Source: Polystyrenella longa
GTDB lineage: Bacteria > Planctomycetota > Planctomycetia > Planctomycetales > Planctomycetaceae
Direction of reading: 5' to 3'
DNA: 64,000 nucleotides
NCBI RefSeq assembly: GCF_007750395.1
Contig: NZ_CP036281.1
Location: 471,211-535,210, forward strand
Below are positions 1 to 59,014 of the stretch, piece after piece (the stretch's first letter is position 1; each line of letters begins with the position of its first letter). The notes beneath the pieces are model-generated. The model did no database searches. It worked only from the letters and a program-made list of their open reading frames with translations, and was not told the origin of the DNA. The position numbers were made by a program, and so were the translations under genes.

Positions 1-1196
1 CCGAACAGCGAGAGGTTGTTCAAAGAGAACCCGAAAAACGCCATCCCCGCAAATGTACCAATCAGCGAGACAGGCACGGCTACCATCGGAATGATCGTCG
101 CACGCCAGCTTTGTAGAAAGATCAGGACGACCAGGAAGACGAGTCCGAGGGCCTGAAACAAAGTCACGAAAACATCGTTGATGGATTGTTCAATAAAACC
201 AGTCGTGTCATAAACGATTTTGTAGTCGAGACCAGTTGGGAATGTTTTCTTTAATGTTTCCATCTGCTCCCTAATGCGGGTCGCGGTGTCTAAAGCGTTC
301 GAGCCGGGCAACTGGAACAGCCCCAATGTGACAGTAGGTTTACCATCGATCAAACTACTGATGTCGTAGTTTTTCGCGCCCAATTCAATGCGGGCGACAT
401 CTTTGAGATGTGTCGTTTCGCCATTCGAACCTGTCTTCACGACGATCTGTTCAAACTCGGAGACTTCTTTCAGGCGACCTTTGGTATTAATGGTAAACTG
501 AAAATCTTCTCCAGTAGGGACAGGAGGTTGTCCCAATTGGCCAGCTGCAACCTGCACATTCTGTTCACGAACAGCCCGTAAAACATCGCCTGCAGTCATG
601 TCCCTGGCTGCTAGAAGACTTGGATCGAGCCACACACGCATGCTGTAGTCACGTGCCCCCCAGACAATCAGATCGCCGACCCCTTCGACGCGGGCCAGCG
701 CGTCGCGAATACGGATCGTGACGTAGTTACTGAGGTACAGTTCGTCGTAGGTGTCGTCCGGTGAAACAATATTGACACACATCAGCAGACTGGGAGATCG
801 TTTTTTCGTCGTGACCCCTTGACGCGTGACTTCTTCGGGCAATTTGGGCATGGCAATGGCCACCCGGTTTTGTACGTTGACCTGGGCCATGTCGATATCG
901 GTACCGACTTTGAATGTTACATCGATATTCATCTGACCGTCGTTGGTACTGCTGGAGGAGAGATACAGCATGTCTTCAACGCCGTTGATCTCCTGCTCGA
1001 TCGGTGTCGCCACCGTGTCGGCAACCGATTCCGCGTTCGCTCCCGGATAAATGGTCGAGACCTGGATCGTCGGCGGGGTCACTTCCGGGTACTGAGCGAC
1101 TGGCAATACGAGGTACGCCACCGAGCCTAGAATCACGATCACGATCGACAAGACTGTCGCAAAAATTGGCCGGTTAATGAAGAAGTGAGAAAACAT
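1..1196 (-). CDS. RND efflux pump inner-membrane subunit (AcrB/MexB, HAE1 family), C-terminal part outside window
   Basis: Proton-driven inner-membrane pump of a tripartite RND exporter, likely for drugs, detergents or other hydrophobic compounds. The frame opens at an ATG at 1196 and runs off the left edge without a stop, so about the first 398 of roughly 1,040 residues are visible. The N-terminus MFSHFFINRPIFATVLSIV is the classic HAE1 start with the first membrane helix. It is followed by the PVAQYPEVTPPTIQV stretch and the periplasmic porter domain, then GSNALDTATRIR and the second helix region (VFLVVLIFLQSWRATIIP). The adaptor gene lies upstream on the same strand, about 100 bases away, forming an adaptor-pump operon. 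Family is clear; substrate unknown. Confidence 0.95.
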   Translation of the reverse strand, partial: MFSHFFINRPIFATVLSIVIVILGSVAYLVLPVAQYPEVTPPTIQVSTIYPGANAESVADTVATPIEQEINGVEDMLYLSSSSTNDGQMNIDVTFKVGTDIDMAQVNVQNRVAIAMPKLPEEVTRQGVTTKKRSPSLLMCVNIVSPDDTYDELYLSNYVTIRIRDALARVEGVGDLIVWGARDYSMRVWLDPSLLAARDMTAGDVLRAVREQNVQVAAGQLGQPPVPTGEDFQFTINTKGRLKEVSEFEQIVVKTGSNGETTHLKDVARIELGAKNYDISSLIDGKPTVTLGLFQLPGSNALDTATRIREQMETLKKTFPTGLDYKIVYDTTGFIEQSINDVFVTLFQALGLVFLVVLIFLQSWRATIIPMVAVPVSLIGTFAGMAFFGFSLNNLSLF

Positions 1197-51321: not shown

Positions 51322-51642
51322 TCAGCTGTTCAGCCATTCGAGATGAATATATTTGGCGAGCGATCCCAGATTCTCCTGGAGCAGCCATTCCATATCTGAC
51401 TTCTCTAGTCGGGTGGACAGATAAAGATTGTCCCGAATTCCCAAGTCGATGTCGTGTAGCAGGCTTTCGAGTCCGCGGGGGGACATGCAAATTCTTGCCC
51501 GTAGCATATTCCCCACCTGCGTGCTGATTTGTTCGACGTCTTGCTCCATGGCATCCGGAGAGACCATTAATACAAATTTTCGGTATTCCATGGACATGGC
51601 GATGATGCCTGATCGATAAGAGCAACGGATTGAGTTCTCCAA
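51322..51642 (-). CDS. Small hypothetical protein
   Basis: 106 residues if started at 51642; the ATG at 51597 (MSMEYRKFVLMVSPDAMEQ) gives 91 and looks more protein-like. Soluble, helical, no motif recognised. Lies between the acyltransferase and phosphatase-cytochrome genes on the same strand. A competing 145-codon frame overlaps it but has poor composition. Confidence 0.5.
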   Translation of the reverse strand: MENSIRCSYRSGIIAMSMEYRKFVLMVSPDAMEQDVEQISTQVGNMLRARICMSPRGLESLLHDIDLGIRDNLYLSTRLEKSDMEWLLQENLGSLAKYIHLEWLNS

Positions 51643-51703: not shown

Positions 51704-52648
51704 TCAATTCCGAAATTGTGCATGACAGGCTTTGCAGTCCCGTTTTATTTCATTCAGTTTTTCAAGCCAGGTCGCTCGGGAGTGCGTCGTCTTCAATTCA
51801 TATTTAATCGATTTGAGGCGGAGATCGCTTTCTTCAAAGGCAGTGACTAACTCCGCGTCGGAACTTTTGTCGAGCGCGACGGTGCGGCGTGATTCCCGGA
51901 TTAACTCCCAGAGCAGCAGCGTCTCGCCGTTCAGCTGGTCTTCGATTTCGGGAGTCATGTCCTCGGTCGCTTCCAGGAACGCAGTGAGGTGATCGAAACG
52001 GCGATCTGCTTCGGCCATATGGCTGGCTACGGAATCGACCTCGGCAGTTTCTTCCAGAGGAGGTAACTCCTCGGAGGTGGCAGGCGGCTGGAACTCGCGA
52101 ACCGATTTCCACAGTCCTTTGTATTGCGGGCTGGTTCCGGCTTCTTGCAGGAATTGCTCCGCCTGTTTGCCATCGAAGACCTCGGCTGCCTGACAGAGAA
52201 TAGCCATCGCCGCAGGACCGCGATGTTTGCCATGATGGCAGTGCACGTATACGGGTTCATCTATTTCCTTCGCGGCCCGAACGAGCGAAAGTTCCGCACC
52301 GCGATCAATCCCGCTGTATTGCACCGGGATATGAACATATCGGATTCCGTACTTCCGCGCGAGTTCCACATTGGGTCGAATGCCATCAACACTAATGATG
52401 ACTTTCACTCCCATCTCTTTTAACTGCTGGAACGCGGCCTCTCCAACCGGTTCAGCCCCGCTGTAGTATTGAAGTGTAATCTTTTTGAGGTTGTGCAGAG
52501 ATTCTTCTGCCTTCTCTTCAGCGAACCCATTTGCTGGGCCGAAGAAAAAATCCCCAAGAAATAATACGGCGACAAAGAGGGTCAGGGGTGCGAACGAGCA
52601 GTCTTTGAGGCGATCTTGAAAGGAGAGGAGAGAGTGGAAAAGATGCAT
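51704..52648 (-). CDS. Secreted dual-specificity-phosphatase-like domain fused to cytochrome c'-like domain
   Basis: A 314-residue exported protein. Signal or anchor helix at about 20-42 (LTLFVAVLFLGDFFFGPANG). Residues 55-165 look like a cysteine-based phosphatase: KVIISVDGIRPNVELARKYG, YVHIPVQYSGIDRG (possible general acid Asp115) and the P-loop VHCHHGKHRG, which fits CX5R with Cys137 and Arg143. After a linker rich in Glu/Pro, residues 205-314 are helical and end with DCKACHAQFRN. CxxCH (305-309) plus Arg313 is the C-terminal haem signature of cytochrome c'. The combination is unusual. Function unknown: either redox control of a phosphatase or a phosphatase-fold sensor. It is divergent from the DUF3179 gene. 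Confidence 0.82.
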   Translation of the reverse strand: MHLFHSLLSFQDRLKDCSFAPLTLFVAVLFLGDFFFGPANGFAEEKAEESLHNLKKITLQYYSGAEPVGEAAFQQLKEMGVKVIISVDGIRPNVELARKYGIRYVHIPVQYSGIDRGAELSLVRAAKEIDEPVYVHCHHGKHRGPAAMAILCQAAEVFDGKQAEQFLQEAGTSPQYKGLWKSVREFQPPATSEELPPLEETAEVDSVASHMAEADRRFDHLTAFLEATEDMTPEIEDQLNGETLLLWELIRESRRTVALDKSSDAELVTAFEESDLRLKSIKYELKTTHSRATWLEKLNEIKRDCKACHAQFRN

Positions 52649-52784: not shown

Positions 52785-52806
52785 AAATGTGATTCAGCTC
52801 ACATTT
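52785..52806 (+). promoter_or_regulatory. CRP/FNR-family palindromic operator
   Basis: A perfect 22-base palindrome of the CRP consensus type: AAA-TGTGA, six-base spacer TTCAGC, TCACA-TTT. It lies about 120 bases before the DUF3179 start and about 135 bases before the divergent phosphatase-cytochrome start, so it could control either or both. A CRP/FNR homologue is not in the window. Confidence 0.6.
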
Positions 52807-52925: not shown

Positions 52926-54095
52926 ATGAGTAATGAGCCTGCGTCTCCTTCTGTTCCGCCCGAGAACACTCCTGGATCAGATAAATCTAGTCCACCTGCA
53001 TATCCCCTCAAACGAATTGTTATTCTGGCAGCCATCATCCTATGCCTCAGCGTCCTGGGGGTGGCGGCGATCGATAACTCAACCTATCTTGCTGCGGTCT
53101 GCCAACAGCAAACATTTTCTCCGTATTCCGGCACGGAAGATATGCAGAAGGGAAAAGGGTATCAGGCGAACTATCCATTGTTTGCGTTTGATCTACGGCG
53201 CATGAGCATTCCCAGGAATCAGGTTCGGGCCGGTGGAGTGCAGAAGGATGAAATCCCTGCGCTGGTTGATACAGAAACAGAAACCGCTGAACAGTCAACA
53301 CATTTGAATCCCCGTGATCGGGTCGTCGGAGTCGTGCTGGACGGTGAAGCCAGAGCATATCCGATTAAAATCATGCGACATCACGAAATCGCCAACGATC
53401 AACTGGGGGGAATGGATATCGCTGTGACCTATTGCCCATTATGTGATTCGGTCGCTGTCTATGATCGAAATACAGAGGGAGGGACTGTTGAATTGCGAGT
53501 TTCCGGACTGGTGTATCAAAATAATGTCCTTATGTTTGATCGATCACAATCAGAGGAGGATCTGGAATCCCTCTGGTTACAAATAGGTTCCAAAAGTGTC
53601 TCCGGAGAATCCAAAGGTGAGGCACTTGATGCTTTACCAGTTGAGTTAACAACTTGGGGAGAATGGAAACAACGATACCCAGATACAGCTGTGTTGATTG
53701 CTGATCAGGGTTTCAGCAAGGACTATGAGAATAATCCCTATGCACAATACGAGAGTTCTCTAGCACCGATGTTTGAGATCGCCAATCCGGATAAGCGTTT
53801 GCCTCATAAAGAACGGGTGCTGGGCGTCTGGACTGAAAAGACAAATCGCGCATACCCTGTCTCGCTGTTCTCCGCCGATAAGACGACGATCGAAGATGAG
53901 ATCGGCGGGCTGAAAATAAAGCTGGCGTACAATCCTAACACTGAATCGATTCGTGTTGTTGAAGCTGACGAAGGGCTGGAATGGATGTATTCCTTCTGGT
54001 TTGCCTGGGCTGCCATCCGTCGAGATACTGAGATTCACAACGAAGACGAAGTGGCCGCTAAGTTGTCTCTCCCCAATATTGGCACTCCTGAATAA
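52926..54095 (+). CDS. DUF3179 family protein with N-terminal membrane anchor
   Basis: A 389-residue protein with one N-terminal membrane helix (about 30-50, IVILAAIILCLSVLGVAA) and the DUF3179 domain. Key pattern: VVGVVLDGEARAYPIKIM, RHHEIANDQLGG, and AVTYCPLCDSVAVYDR, whose paired cysteines and His residues may bind metal or haem. The domain is common in planctomycetes and has no established activity. Placed downstream of the CRP-type site. Confidence 0.88.
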   Translation: MSNEPASPSVPPENTPGSDKSSPPAYPLKRIVILAAIILCLSVLGVAAIDNSTYLAAVCQQQTFSPYSGTEDMQKGKGYQANYPLFAFDLRRMSIPRNQVRAGGVQKDEIPALVDTETETAEQSTHLNPRDRVVGVVLDGEARAYPIKIMRHHEIANDQLGGMDIAVTYCPLCDSVAVYDRNTEGGTVELRVSGLVYQNNVLMFDRSQSEEDLESLWLQIGSKSVSGESKGEALDALPVELTTWGEWKQRYPDTAVLIADQGFSKDYENNPYAQYESSLAPMFEIANPDKRLPHKERVLGVWTEKTNRAYPVSLFSADKTTIEDEIGGLKIKLAYNPNTESIRVVEADEGLEWMYSFWFAWAAIRRDTEIHNEDEVAAKLSLPNIGTPE

Positions 54096-55727: not shown

Positions 55728-57947
55728 TCAGCGGACTTGATACAACTCTGCCATCACGACGAACGTCTTCCCTTCTTTCGTGTGAATTAAGTCCGGTGCC
55801 CATTCCTTGATCTCATTCTGCTGGGATGCGTTCAGGTTGTCGAATTCGATAATCCACAACGATTCGGGTTTAGAGAGAATCTCCCTCTCGACCAATTGCT
55901 GGAGGTGGGCCGGTGTCACCTTTTCGTCAAAGCCATAGGTCTGACGATAACGCAAAATCTCTTCCCAGTTGACGGCGACATAATCGAGGTTCGCTTCAGC
56001 GAATCTCGATTTGATTTCAGCGGTTGGTTTTAACTCGGAGGTATCCGGGTTCGCATCAGGTTGCTCGACCAGACTGAGATACTCTGAGCGATTAAAGACC
56101 GTGTTATAGATCGGTACAAACCGGGCATCAAATACTTGCGCTTCGCCGATAAGTAAGACTCGGGATTCTGCCGGAAGTTTTTGGTTTAACACATATGTTA
56201 AGTAGGCTCCCTGTTCAGCAATCTGGCGAGTCGTCGCCATGTCACTACCGACTGGTAAGTGCGTACCGAGTGAGGAGATCATCAGCACAAAGTTAACCCC
56301 CATCATCAGGAAGCCGACAACGCGACTGTAACGGAACCAGGCAGGGGTATCGCTCCAGGTGAACCCACCTCCGGCCAGGACAGTGAACGGCAACAGTGCT
56401 GGCAACCAGAACCGGTCGATTCGATGCGTGAAGAACCACCACATCAACGTTAAGTAAATGATGCCACCTAACAGCCACCAGCCAGTAACTCGTCTCCTCG
56501 CGTTCAACCAGAGCAATGGTGCAAACAGGAGCAGTAGGGGTGATTGCAGTGGGTCGCTGACTAGGCGGTGAAAAAGGGAACGAGGTAGTTCATTGAGTGC
56601 TTCCTGAGGAACAGAGTGGCCCGCTTGCCAGGCAGCATGGATTTCGTCCGTCCACCCCCGTCCTCCAAACAGGCCGTAAGCGAGAGGGAAAACAGGATTG
56701 CCAGTGAAGATGATATTCTTGAATAACCAGGGACCGACCGCGACTGTTAACCCGATGAAGAATCCGATCAATGGGTTCCGATAGATCTGCCAAAGTGATG
56801 GAGACGACGACGATCTCGCTCGTAGATACGGATGGTAGAGCAAATAGATCAGGAATATCGCTGCGGGCAGCACACCCCAGATCAAGCCCGGATACTTGCA
56901 AGCCATCGCGCCGCCGGCGAACCCACCGAGGAGAGTCGCCGGGATCAACAGGTCGGTGGGGGTGTCTGTCTTATTTTCGCTTCGCATGCACTGCTGCAAT
57001 TGCACGCCGAGAAGAAATGTGAGCGAAAGATAGAACAGCATTCCTCCTTCCGCATAGGCCGTCTTTGACAATGTGTAGCTCCAGGGGATGGAAAGCCAGA
57101 TCAGACAAGTCAGCCAGCCACTCGTTTCGTTAAACAGTTTCCGGGCGATGCTCGCCAACGCTAAACCGGTGCAGGGGACCAGCGGCATCAACAGGCATTT
57201 GCCAACCAATGCTCCGCGATACCAGTCACCCCGAAGCAGCATGCCTAACAGGGCAGTCATCTCTGTTAGTGCCGGGAAGCTGGTGTAAACGTTGTGTTCT
57301 AAAAAGGTGATCTGGCCCGCGAGATAATATTCCTTAGGCCCTTGCAGATGATATTCACGAACGTCGAAGTCGAGCGGAGGTTGTGTTGCTCCCAGGATCA
57401 TCAGCGTCAAGAAGGGAATCGCACACAAAACCAACCCGAGGTGACTTCGGAAAGGGAGGAGCGTAGGACCTTTAGACCGGTTTGTACGATGTCGATACCA
57501 ATGAACGGTTTCGATTAACAGGGGGACTAGGATCAACAATCGCCACAGCCAGGACGAGAGCATCCCCACCATACCGAGGATTAGGACCAGGCTGGTAACT
57601 AAAGAAAGCCCGATTCCATATGCGAACAGATTGAAGTCGAGCTCGTTCAGTTCACCGCTCCCAAGAAACCCACGTACATTGCGCAAAACCAAACGACCGC
57701 TCGTCCAGATTCCCAGTGTGCCGAGTAGTGCGGTGAACCACAGGTCGATCCTTTCCCAAATGAATTGATCGAGTGACGTTCCATCAATGCCCCAGTAGTC
57801 TGACCACCATTCGGAAAAGATCAGCGCGATGTCGATCCGACCGATGGTCACCCCCGGCAGGGCAAGCGGAACGGTCAGCAAATACCCTCCCAGTAAGAGC
57901 AGCCAGAGAAAAGCGACGATCAAAGGAAGAGAGGCGGAACGCGACAT
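55728..57947 (-). CDS. GT39-like polytopic glycosyltransferase (ArnT/Pmt type)
   Basis: A 739-residue integral membrane protein with about 13 hydrophobic helices, then a soluble C-terminal region (about 580-739). It resembles lipid-linked-sugar glycosyltransferases: an acidic first loop (PPLDFDVREYHLQGPKEY) with the DxxxY/H-type pattern, Lys-Tyr-Pro-Gly loop GAMACKYPGLIWG, and IPWSYTLSKTAYAEGGML. Start at ATG 57947 (MSRSASLPLIV), as a longer frame would overlap the neighbour. Probably transfers a sugar from polyprenyl phosphate outside the membrane. Confidence 0.78.
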   Translation of the reverse strand: MSRSASLPLIVAFLWLLLLGGYLLTVPLALPGVTIGRIDIALIFSEWWSDYWGIDGTSLDQFIWERIDLWFTALLGTLGIWTSGRLVLRNVRGFLGSGELNELDFNLFAYGIGLSLVTSLVLILGMVGMLSSWLWRLLILVPLLIETVHWYRHRTNRSKGPTLLPFRSHLGLVLCAIPFLTLMILGATQPPLDFDVREYHLQGPKEYYLAGQITFLEHNVYTSFPALTEMTALLGMLLRGDWYRGALVGKCLLMPLVPCTGLALASIARKLFNETSGWLTCLIWLSIPWSYTLSKTAYAEGGMLFYLSLTFLLGVQLQQCMRSENKTDTPTDLLIPATLLGGFAGGAMACKYPGLIWGVLPAAIFLIYLLYHPYLRARSSSSPSLWQIYRNPLIGFFIGLTVAVGPWLFKNIIFTGNPVFPLAYGLFGGRGWTDEIHAAWQAGHSVPQEALNELPRSLFHRLVSDPLQSPLLLLFAPLLWLNARRRVTGWWLLGGIIYLTLMWWFFTHRIDRFWLPALLPFTVLAGGGFTWSDTPAWFRYSRVVGFLMMGVNFVLMISSLGTHLPVGSDMATTRQIAEQGAYLTYVLNQKLPAESRVLLIGEAQVFDARFVPIYNTVFNRSEYLSLVEQPDANPDTSELKPTAEIKSRFAEANLDYVAVNWEEILRYRQTYGFDEKVTPAHLQQLVEREILSKPESLWIIEFDNLNASQQNEIKEWAPDLIHTKEGKTFVVMAELYQVR

Positions 57948-58009
57948 TAGCAATTCAATGAAGAGAGGGGGTGGGGATTGAGTTTCAGATATATTGCCTG
58001 GGACGGGAA

Positions 58010-59014
58010 TCAAATCTCCAGAAGTTGACGCATCATTTGCCAGGGTTGAATGTAGGTCAAAAAGGGGAGCCCGTCGACCGTCGCTTCAGGTCGACCAGTC
58101 ACGCCATCGACAGCGGGGCCTTTCTCGACCATCCGTTCCAGCAACTGCAAATGGTGCTCTGCCGTCCAAGGCGCCAGAATATCGGGGCGCTGTTTGAGAA
58201 TTGCGATCGCAGCAGTCAGTGCCAGGGCGCCCCAGTTACTGGTTCCGGCAACAATGATTTCATCTGTCGCTACGCGACAAGGAATATGGCTCGTTCCCTC
58301 CAGTGGAAGGCACGCCTGGATCTGTTGCCAGTCGAGTTGTCCCATCCCGATTTCATTACCACCATCTCCGATACCCATTGTGAGAGCCTGCGGATGGAAA
58401 TGAGGCAATTGCTCGAACAGTTCATGCAGCGGGGCATTCCACTCGTCGATGCTCAACCCCCGCATATTGTGACAACATCCCTGTTTTTCAGGAGGAACCT
58501 GGCTCAAGAACTCATTGATGTCTAAGTCGGGGTATTGTGATTGGAAAGTCTCGGTCGTGTGACCCGGCCCGGCACGCTCAATAGCAATGAGGTGGGTTAA
58601 TCCACAGCCCGGTCCTGATTCATAAAAGTGGCGATGCCACTCGGGTTCCGGTTTGAGCGGAACGATATGCACGAGTTCCGGGTCAAGGTCGACGGCGCGG
58701 GCCGCAGACTTAACGGCGGACTCCGAATGGGTGTCAGTCACGATTTGTGCTTTGATCCCCAGTTGTTCCAGCATTTTTGTCAGATAAACCGTTCCGGGTG
58801 GGCCATCGGTTTCCGAGGCGGCCACAATTCCGCTGGGGATATAGAAACCTGTGACCAGTACCACCCGTTGAGCGTTCTCCGCCAGCTCTGCGGCTGCCCG
58901 GGCCAGACTCCCCATTCCGAACGACTGGCCAGGCGTGCTCTGCCCCAGCAGGCCGCGTTGTCCGGGGTCGCGTCGAATCAATTGTTCCAGTTTGGAAATC
59001 AGGTCTGGGTTCAC
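58010..59014 (-). CDS. D-glutamate cyclase-like protein (DUF4392)
   Basis: A 334-residue homologue of the bacterial D-glutamate cyclase/C-terminal DGLUCY domain, which converts D-glutamate to 5-oxo-D-proline. Visible are LVTGFYIPSGIVAASETDGPPG and the diagnostic MGIGDGGNEIGMG, plus an early Arg/Gly-rich RDPGQRGL segment. The start is a GTG at 59014. Immediately upstream of the glycosyltransferase gene in the same direction. Confidence 0.88.
   Translation of the reverse strand: MNPDLISKLEQLIRRDPGQRGLLGQSTPGQSFGMGSLARAAAELAENAQRVVLVTGFYIPSGIVAASETDGPPGTVYLTKMLEQLGIKAQIVTDTHSESAVKSAARAVDLDPELVHIVPLKPEPEWHRHFYESGPGCGLTHLIAIERAGPGHTTETFQSQYPDLDINEFLSQVPPEKQGCCHNMRGLSIDEWNAPLHELFEQLPHFHPQALTMGIGDGGNEIGMGQLDWQQIQACLPLEGTSHIPCRVATDEIIVAGTSNWGALALTAAIAILKQRPDILAPWTAEHHLQLLERMVEKGPAVDGVTGRPEATVDGLPFLTYIQPWQMMRQLLEI

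Follow-up and report, generated by a model that had tools for sequence, protein, structure and literature searches.

A putatively exported fusion of a PTP-fold domain with a class II cytochrome c-like domain, conserved in planctomycetes and other bacteria

Introduction

An open reading frame of 314 aa in the genome of the planctomycete Polystyrenella longa (51704..52648, minus strand) joins a PTP-fold domain to a class II cytochrome c domain, as judged from its translation and from family searches. Positions refer to the 64,000-nucleotide stretch of contig NZ_CP036281.1 analysed here, called the window. This reading frame is a genuine two-domain fusion and not a product of chance, because its architecture recurs in relatives with the motifs of both domains kept. 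The fusion family is conserved and is undescribed within the literature searched, mostly outside subscription papers, and no PTP-fold enzyme with a c-type haem was found among the Pfam and NCBIfam models searched.

At a probability of roughly 40%, we favor the reading that the protein is a periplasmic PTP-fold enzyme, either secreted or a lipoprotein, whose catalytic Cys137 is redox-coupled to the haem of its own chain. The haem would be bound through Cys305 and Cys308, with His309 and Met211 as ligands of the iron, and as a six-coordinate, low-spin electron carrier it could exchange electrons with the periplasmic cytochrome pool. The redox state of Cys137, the reactive residue, would be set by the haem or would be sensed by it. 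Via a covalent Cys137 intermediate, a phosphoester or some chemically related group would then be cleaved only while the respiratory pool keeps the haem, and hence the cysteine, in the right state, so that the reaction would be gated by respiration. Such redox control of a catalytic cysteine is plausible. If the haem is indeed coupled to the reactive cysteine, periplasmic respiration would be tied directly to Cys-phosphatase (or sulfur) chemistry, and relatives in which the two halves are encoded by separate genes put this coupling within reach of simple genetics and of mixing purified halves.

The Reading Frame and Its Domains

Residues 1-43 (52520..52648, minus strand) are hydrophobic and signal-like by eye and presumably act as an export signal; lipobox-like or signal-like starts were seen, also by eye, in several relatives. 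The PTP/DSP-fold domain covers residues about 50-190 (52079..52501, minus strand), as delimited by Pfam, by a profile search of the PDB and by Foldseek and VIA comparisons of a structural model. Its P-loop, HCHHGKHRG (52217..52243, minus strand), was identified from the translation and alignment and contains Cys137 and Arg143 together with the conserved His136, His139, and His142. Profiles and the model place a four-helix domain of the class II cytochrome c type (c′/c-556/b562-like) at residues 198-314 (51707..52057, minus strand). The chain closes with CKACHAQFRN, whose key residues are Cys305, Cys308, His309, and Arg313: CKACH (51722..51736, minus strand) is the motif for covalent haem attachment and includes the proximal His309, and Arg313 (51710..51712, minus strand) stands after CxxCH as in cytochromes c′. 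The coordinates, signal-like start, P-loop and C-terminal motif reported in an earlier note on this DNA all agree with the translation of the minus strand. Its principal claim, that a phosphatase fold and a haem domain of the cytochrome c′ family occur in one exported chain, is borne out by profiles, by the model and by the survey of homologues. The AlphaFold model of the mature protein is confident (pLDDT 93.4, pTM 0.86) and has two domains, one of them with the phosphatase fold. At the level of domain models the picture is mixed: Cytochrom_C_2 is matched by 96 of 97 members, and the window protein itself falls below the curated cut-offs for both halves.

Conservation and Distribution of the Family

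The window protein was matched in 36 of 59 relative genomes, and 33 of the matches, one per genome, span most of the protein; all 30 sequences examined among these 33 keep both HCxxGxHR and the C-terminal CxxCH. A profile built from 30 near-full-length homologues (A1) matched, at E 1e-3, 187 of the 294 genomes sampled from the window's phylum. Among the matches listed, the full fusion is represented by 97 homologues in 96 of the 294 genomes, all at E 4.6e-60 or better. This sample was cut at a gap, no listed match falling between E 4.6e-60 and 1.4e-40, so that no protein of the family proper consisting of the phosphatase half alone is missed by the cut.

In the alignment of these 97 homologues, His136, Cys137, Gly140, and Arg143 are each invariant, and His142 and His139 are kept in 96 and 95, respectively; position 138 is occupied by His (63), Phe (32) or Tyr (2). 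On the cytochrome side, Met211 is found in all 97 proteins, Cys305, Cys308, and His309 in 94, and Arg313 in 93. The three proteins that lack CxxCH (L144, L180, and L199) all have reading frames reaching a contig end, L199 being ambiguous in that it departs from the profile shortly ahead of that end. Co-conservation of Cys137 (97/97), Arg143 (97/97), and CxxCH (94/97) was thus found across the family, and the proposal of the earlier note withstands the refutation that it had itself named: the fold is there in the model, and the motifs are present in most species. Four further positions, E248, E252, R255, and H138, had appeared near-invariant in a less diverse set of 101 sequences (110 minus nine duplicates) and were dropped from consideration, being kept in 60, 47, 45, and 63 of the 97.

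A scan of named records confirmed 499 relatives. It was searched with P-loop peptides as patterns, and its P-loop counts are therefore no evidence of conservation. Of 80 loci examined, 79 carry the C-terminal CxxCH and the remaining one is cut by its contig. By record name, these 80 comprise 52 planctomycete, 22 verrucomicrobial, two lentisphaeral and one hydrogenedentotal entries and three called only "bacterium"; most are MAGs, in which binning errors are possible. In the phylum of Chthoniobacter flavus, the full protein was found in one of 145 sampled genomes, namely the C. flavus seed genome. With 52 of 80 names planctomycete and a single occurrence among those 145 genomes, the family occurs most often in the window's phylum and yet is not confined to it. 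No relative was found in viral contigs, and only two among 72,556 plasmid records, both planctomycete and annotated as "dual specificity protein phosphatase" and "hypothetical protein". That unrelated reading frames had been joined by chance or by faulty assembly, or that the CxxCH is fortuitous, is refuted by this survey, the architecture being the same in 94 of the 97 sampled homologues and in 79 of the 80 named-record loci, with the rest cut by contig ends; nothing was found in favor of such an artefact, and its probability is practically nil.

The PTP-Fold Domain and Its Catalytic Site

The solved structures nearest to the first domain are those of TpbA, DUSP23, and a DUF442 protein (3gxg). 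Foldseek matched the model to TpbA at E 1.1e-6 (TMt 0.72), VIA superposed it on DUSP23 with Z 17.1 and rmsd 2.5 over 140 residues, and the profile of the domain matched TpbA chains in the PDB at 2.5e-10 and 1.8e-9 (4r0s). Pfam scores lie close to or below the curated cut-offs: the whole window protein reaches 25.9 of 27 bits for Tc-R-P and 19.5 of 33.5 for DSPc, and the PTP domain alone 28.3 and 21.4, respectively. TpbA, a periplasmic DSP of P. aeruginosa (PDB 4r0s, 4r0t, 2m3v), thus gives the best match in both Foldseek and profile searches and shares with the fusion protein the fold, a CX5R P-loop (HCKHGNNR in TpbA) and the periplasmic location, but has no haem domain. The P-loops also differ, since that of the fusion proteins is mostly HC[HF]HGxHR[GS], with a His ahead of the Arg and usually no Ser/Thr behind it. 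In PTP/DSP phosphatases a Ser or Thr after the P-loop Arg is usual. It is absent in most family members, the window protein included, where Arg143 is followed by Gly in 82, by Ser in 14 and by Ala in one of the 97 proteins (Gly144 in the window).

Two other groups share the fold. The DUF442/BLH-type PTP-like domains (PDB 3gxg; PF04273; Blh) superpose with Z 16.0, and 3gxg is matched by the profile at 4.6e-8; they differ in that the window protein is far under the curated cut-offs of their models and in the shortened P-loop of 3gxg. The Siw14/PFA-DSP inositol pyrophosphate phosphatases superpose with Z 15.4 (6byf) and 15.0 (7mok) and have, like the fusion protein, a P-loop of the HCxxGKHR type, but they lack a haem domain and score weakly in sequence against the PTP profile of the fusion.

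The general acid is the less certain part of the active site. In TpbA this role is proposed for Asp105, and the D105A mutant is reported to lose 53% of its efficiency (PMC4409338). In the alignment with the PDB profile, Asp105 falls on position 112 of the fusion protein, which is Ser112 in the window (52313..52315, minus strand). Asp occupies this position in 52 of the 97 proteins, the others having mostly Lys, Ser or Arg, and it tracks residue 138: Asp is found in 51 of 63 proteins with His138 as against one of 32 with Phe138. Asp88, kept in 96 of 97, is a candidate that might substitute as the general acid. Because replacement of Asp105 is reported to cost TpbA only 53% of its efficiency, a missing Asp leaves phosphatase activity possible; because the residue is kept in only 52 of the 97 proteins, the predicted activity is plausible but unproven. 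The word phosphatase used in the earlier note therefore holds for the fold, the Cys and the Arg, and is too strong for the general-acid position.

The same deficit counts in favor of a sulfur or thiol redox enzyme, in which Cys137 acts as a rhodanese-like or thiol-oxidising residue through a persulfide or sulfenyl intermediate, the haem removes the electrons, and no phosphatase activity exists. Some matches point in this direction. The window protein has weak ones, both far under the cut-offs, to the Blh model (18.9 of 625 bits, E 5.6e-4), a sulfur transferase/dioxygenase, and to the TIGR01244 sulfur transferase model (14.1 of 85.85 bits, E 0.037); the BLH_phosphatase model PF04273 matches 40 of the 60 members in an alignment (A3) of the window protein and 59 of 99 others listed. 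An invariant haem motif and Met would, moreover, suggest a part in turnover. However, the closest characterised structures, TpbA and DUSP23, are true phosphatases, the Rhodanese model matches only six of the 60, the loss in TpbA D105A is reported to be partial (PMC4409338), and the seven neighbour proteins scanned include none for sulfur oxidation. We regard sulfur or thiol chemistry as unlikely, though it deserves to be kept in view beside the redox-coupled phosphoester-cleaving enzyme.

The Cytochrome Domain and Its Haem Iron

Modelled alone, the cytochrome domain forms four helices (pLDDT 93.2). Pfam Cytochrom_C_2 matches 96 of the 97 haem-domain sequences submitted at E up to 1, the best at 5e-9; the alignment of these sequences (A2), in which the window sequence takes the place of L001, omits L100 (contig end), L017 (no final Arg), L018, and L094, and so the count excludes those four. 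The window domain alone scores E 0.0061 with 17.9 of 26.5 bits, and the whole protein 15.4 of 26.5 bits. When compared with the PDB, the haem-domain profile matches cytochrome c′ at 5.4e-6. Structural searches are less discriminating. The top eight Foldseek matches (E 0.09-0.37, probability 0.99-1.00) all belong to cytochrome c′, NaxLS or cytochrome cb562, none as good as E 0.001. The best VIA match is NaxLS with Z 13.6 and rmsd 2.0 over 105 residues; a designed bundle reaches 13.1 and cytochrome c′ 6a3k 12.2 (rmsd 3.3 over 109 residues). Since designed bundles score as high as the latter, the fold alone is weak evidence for membership among the cytochromes, and the predicted class II membership is carried by the sequence profile.

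The known class II cytochromes c (cytochromes c′ 5agf and 6a3k, and c-556 1s05) and b562 (2bc5) share the four-helix bundle with the fusion, and the c-type ones also share CxxCH and the Arg. Unlike class II cytochromes c, the cytochrome of the fusion makes up the C-terminal part of an enzyme; in helix A it has an invariant Met, as in b562 and unlike c′. Cytochrome c-556 likewise has a helix-A Met. The residue in question, Met211 (52016..52018, minus strand), is residue 14 of the domain model and the sole invariant methionine of helix A, and it is proposed as the sixth haem ligand from its invariance and from the end points of the superpositions. VIA places model residues 8..116 onto 1..106 of cytochrome cb562 (2bc5), and 7..117 onto 25..129 (6r6o) or 8..117 onto 26..129 (6r6m) of an anammox four-helix chain. 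Given a gapless helix A, Met211 would come to lie on Met7 of b562 and, in the anammox protein, on residue 32, a register that rests on the first and last aligned residues and from which the sequence profile places b562 about three positions off.

The low-spin haem of b562 is held by His102 and Met7 (PMC7864044), and cytochromes c′ have a vacant sixth site beside Tyr16 or a Leu (PMC5368077). The anammox chain belongs to NaxLS (Kusta0087/Kusta0088) of the planctomycete Kuenenia (PDB 6r6m-o, chain A), a two-subunit complex without a phosphatase domain that gives the best superposition of the cytochrome domain. The PDB titles mention changes at Cys32 (in two of them) and Cys101, with the chain unstated; Cys32 may belong to the four-helix chain, where it would take the place of Met211 and bind the iron.

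These comparisons bear on the suggestion in the earlier note that the haem could sense NO and control the catalytic cysteine, taken here as an open, five-coordinate c′-type haem that binds NO (or CO) and thereby switches the phosphatase. Six-coordinate haems are able to bind a gas once a ligand is lost, and a gas sensor would be in keeping with membership in Cytochrom_C_2 and with the Arg after CxxCH in 93 of 97 proteins. Furthermore, NaxLS is called nitric oxide-binding in one report (PMC11897245). Against this stands the invariant Met211 on what the range ends indicate to be a known sixth-ligand position, a site described as vacant in cytochromes c′ (PMC5368077). Sensing by an open haem is accordingly not borne out, and a gas switch of this kind appears improbable. 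Because Met211 is invariant and falls on that position, a six-coordinate His309/Met211 haem serving as an electron carrier is the more likely prediction from the alignment and the model.

The window genome has two matches to cytochrome c assembly families. PF01322 finds matches in 29 of 30 relative genomes, the fusion family being counted among them; class II cytochrome-like C-terminal domains are thus frequent in these genomes (L111-L130), many of them lying, by eye, within longer proteins of other make-up.

Evolution of the Two Halves

When 40 relative genomes were searched with a profile restricted to the phosphatase half, 21 matches reached E 1.4e-54 or better, the next being 2.1e-14, and all 21 are fused proteins ending in CxxCH. 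The three nearest non-fused relatives (L131/L246, L132/L247, and L133/L248; E 3.9e-40, 1.7e-36, and 6.4e-28 with the A1 profile) show the same association in two-gene form: directly downstream of each phosphatase gene lies a separate gene on the same strand with a C-terminal CxxCH and, by eye, a signal-like start. The two genes overlap as GTGA in L247 and are less than 100 bases apart in L246 and L248. The split cytochromes match the haem profile modestly (E 2.4e-7, 2.9e-6, and 5.1e-4), and each has, by eye, a Met near the expected place, which is spanned by the profile match in two of the three. By contrast with these split loci, the surroundings of 21 more remote PTP-only relatives (20 loci with 4.2-9.3 kb around the gene, and L249 with 3.9 kb) contained no haem-profile match. 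The 20 control loci were hand-picked from the phosphatase-only matches and include the paralogue of the window genome itself. Among them, L267 has on its other strand, some kb off, a reading frame of 167 aa with CxxCH at the C terminus, which has no match to the haem profile.

The P-loop follows the same division. His142 is found in 96 of 97 fused proteins and in all three split ones as against one of the 20 PTP-only controls, 18 of which have a DRT form instead. The Fisher value of 7e-20 for this distribution ignores relatedness; the pattern falls mostly within one clade and not in independent events, and the value is therefore no true probability. In a tree made from 144 columns by a quick method, the fused proteins form essentially one group with L131 and L132 outside, and L133 and L143 lie inside it on long branches that possibly attract each other. 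A gene pair that was later fused would fit this poorly resolved tree, and the long branches make the order of events tentative. As sequence comparison shows, the halves are linked to each other in evolution.

From this history a more ambitious reading can be drawn, namely a new class of haem enzyme in which the PTP-fold Cys137 chemistry is wired to a His/Met c-type haem and electrons enter or leave Cys137 during turnover. It would have been born from the two-gene pair, with the P-loop remodelled to HC-H/F-HGxHR and the general acid made dispensable. We hold it to be doubtful, and would rather speak of redox coupling in the general sense given above.

Another proposal is that the protein is an ordinary periplasmic phosphatase in which the haem domain is a docking, stabilising or localisation module without electronic coupling. 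Class II cytochrome-like domains do occur in other proteins, as the sequences mentioned above and the PF01322 matches in 29 of 30 relatives (fusion family counted) attest. In addition, one relative (L097:6171-8789) has an alkaline phosphatase domain (PF00245, 1.3e-40) ahead of the PTP-cytochrome unit, and frames in L091 and L052 look similar by eye. Because alkaline phosphatase is fused ahead of the unit in these proteins, they hint at a link to phosphate metabolism. A docking module, however, could do without the haem motif and the ligand-like Met that all complete copies keep, and would have no need to track the P-loop His. We therefore consider such a role for the haem domain to be quite unlikely, and redox coupling of Cys137 to the haem is again preferred.

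Some frames with unusual make-up were encountered in the course of this comparison. The frame L081:6093-8792 encodes a 3-keto-disaccharide hydrolase, a GDSL lipase, the PTP domain and the cytochrome in a single product of 900 aa. In L143 (G320), a transporter-like (exchanger-like) membrane segment, recognized by eye, is joined in one frame to a diverged PTP domain (CETGRDRA) and a cytochrome domain. At L248:8982-9935 (minus strand), a second, partial match to the PTP profile occurs in the split-type phosphatase frame. This frame of L133/L248 begins near a contig end, its start resembles, by eye, a piece of a tRNA-binding protein, and the opening portion of the PTP profile is missing from it; it may be an assembly chimera.

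Gene Neighborhood

The fusion gene and a divergent DUF3179 gene (52926-54095, plus strand), which lies between it and a gene for FAA-hydrolase, are separated by a putative CRP-type site, the palindrome TGTGA-N6-TCACA (TGTGATTCAGCTCACA, 52788-52803). The earlier note had pointed to a paired-Cys motif in DUF3179, and CPLC is indeed present in its translation. Its further suggestion of a CRP-type operator shared by the two genes stands as far as the exact palindrome is concerned and fails with regard to conservation. The core palindrome is the only exact copy in the window and one of seven in the 6.1 Mb genome, as compared with one site for the reversed-pattern control and about six expected by arithmetic under equal base use; among the seven, only the window copy has AAA/TTT flanks. 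One Crp-type HTH was matched in the window genome. No exact site occurs in the other 107 homologue upstream stretches, some of these loci being copies of each other: among all 108, the window has no mismatch, and L011 and L073, which judged by length are one and the same contig, have one each. A CRP operator as a trait of the family was rejected, since the site is not conserved upstream of homologues; a role of the putative site in this strain is possible.

Neighboring genes name neither a pathway nor a substrate or redox partner, since no widespread partner family emerged: when neighbor ORFs of the 80 named-record loci were clustered, no family was present in more than 10. The largest cluster is an ABC transporter (one member scanned) at scattered distances, and an alpha/beta-hydrolase (one of seven scanned) is close to the fusion gene in seven of the 80 loci.

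The gene order is shared with the sole same-genus relative that has the gene, in which a homologue of the window ORF 55731-58013, FAA-hydrolase, the fusion gene, a small ORF and an HGSNAT-like gene follow in the same order. There, FAA-hydrolase adjoins the fusion gene where the window has DUF3179 and the palindrome, and DUF3179 had no match in the 9.6 kb around the fusion gene; either DUF3179 was gained in the window genome, or it was lost in the relative. The small ORF, of 106 aa, lies directly downstream of the fusion gene (51325-51642, minus strand, from translation). It has no Pfam match and is 77% identical over 93 aa to its counterpart in the same-genus genome, and is thus probably a real, uncharacterised gene.
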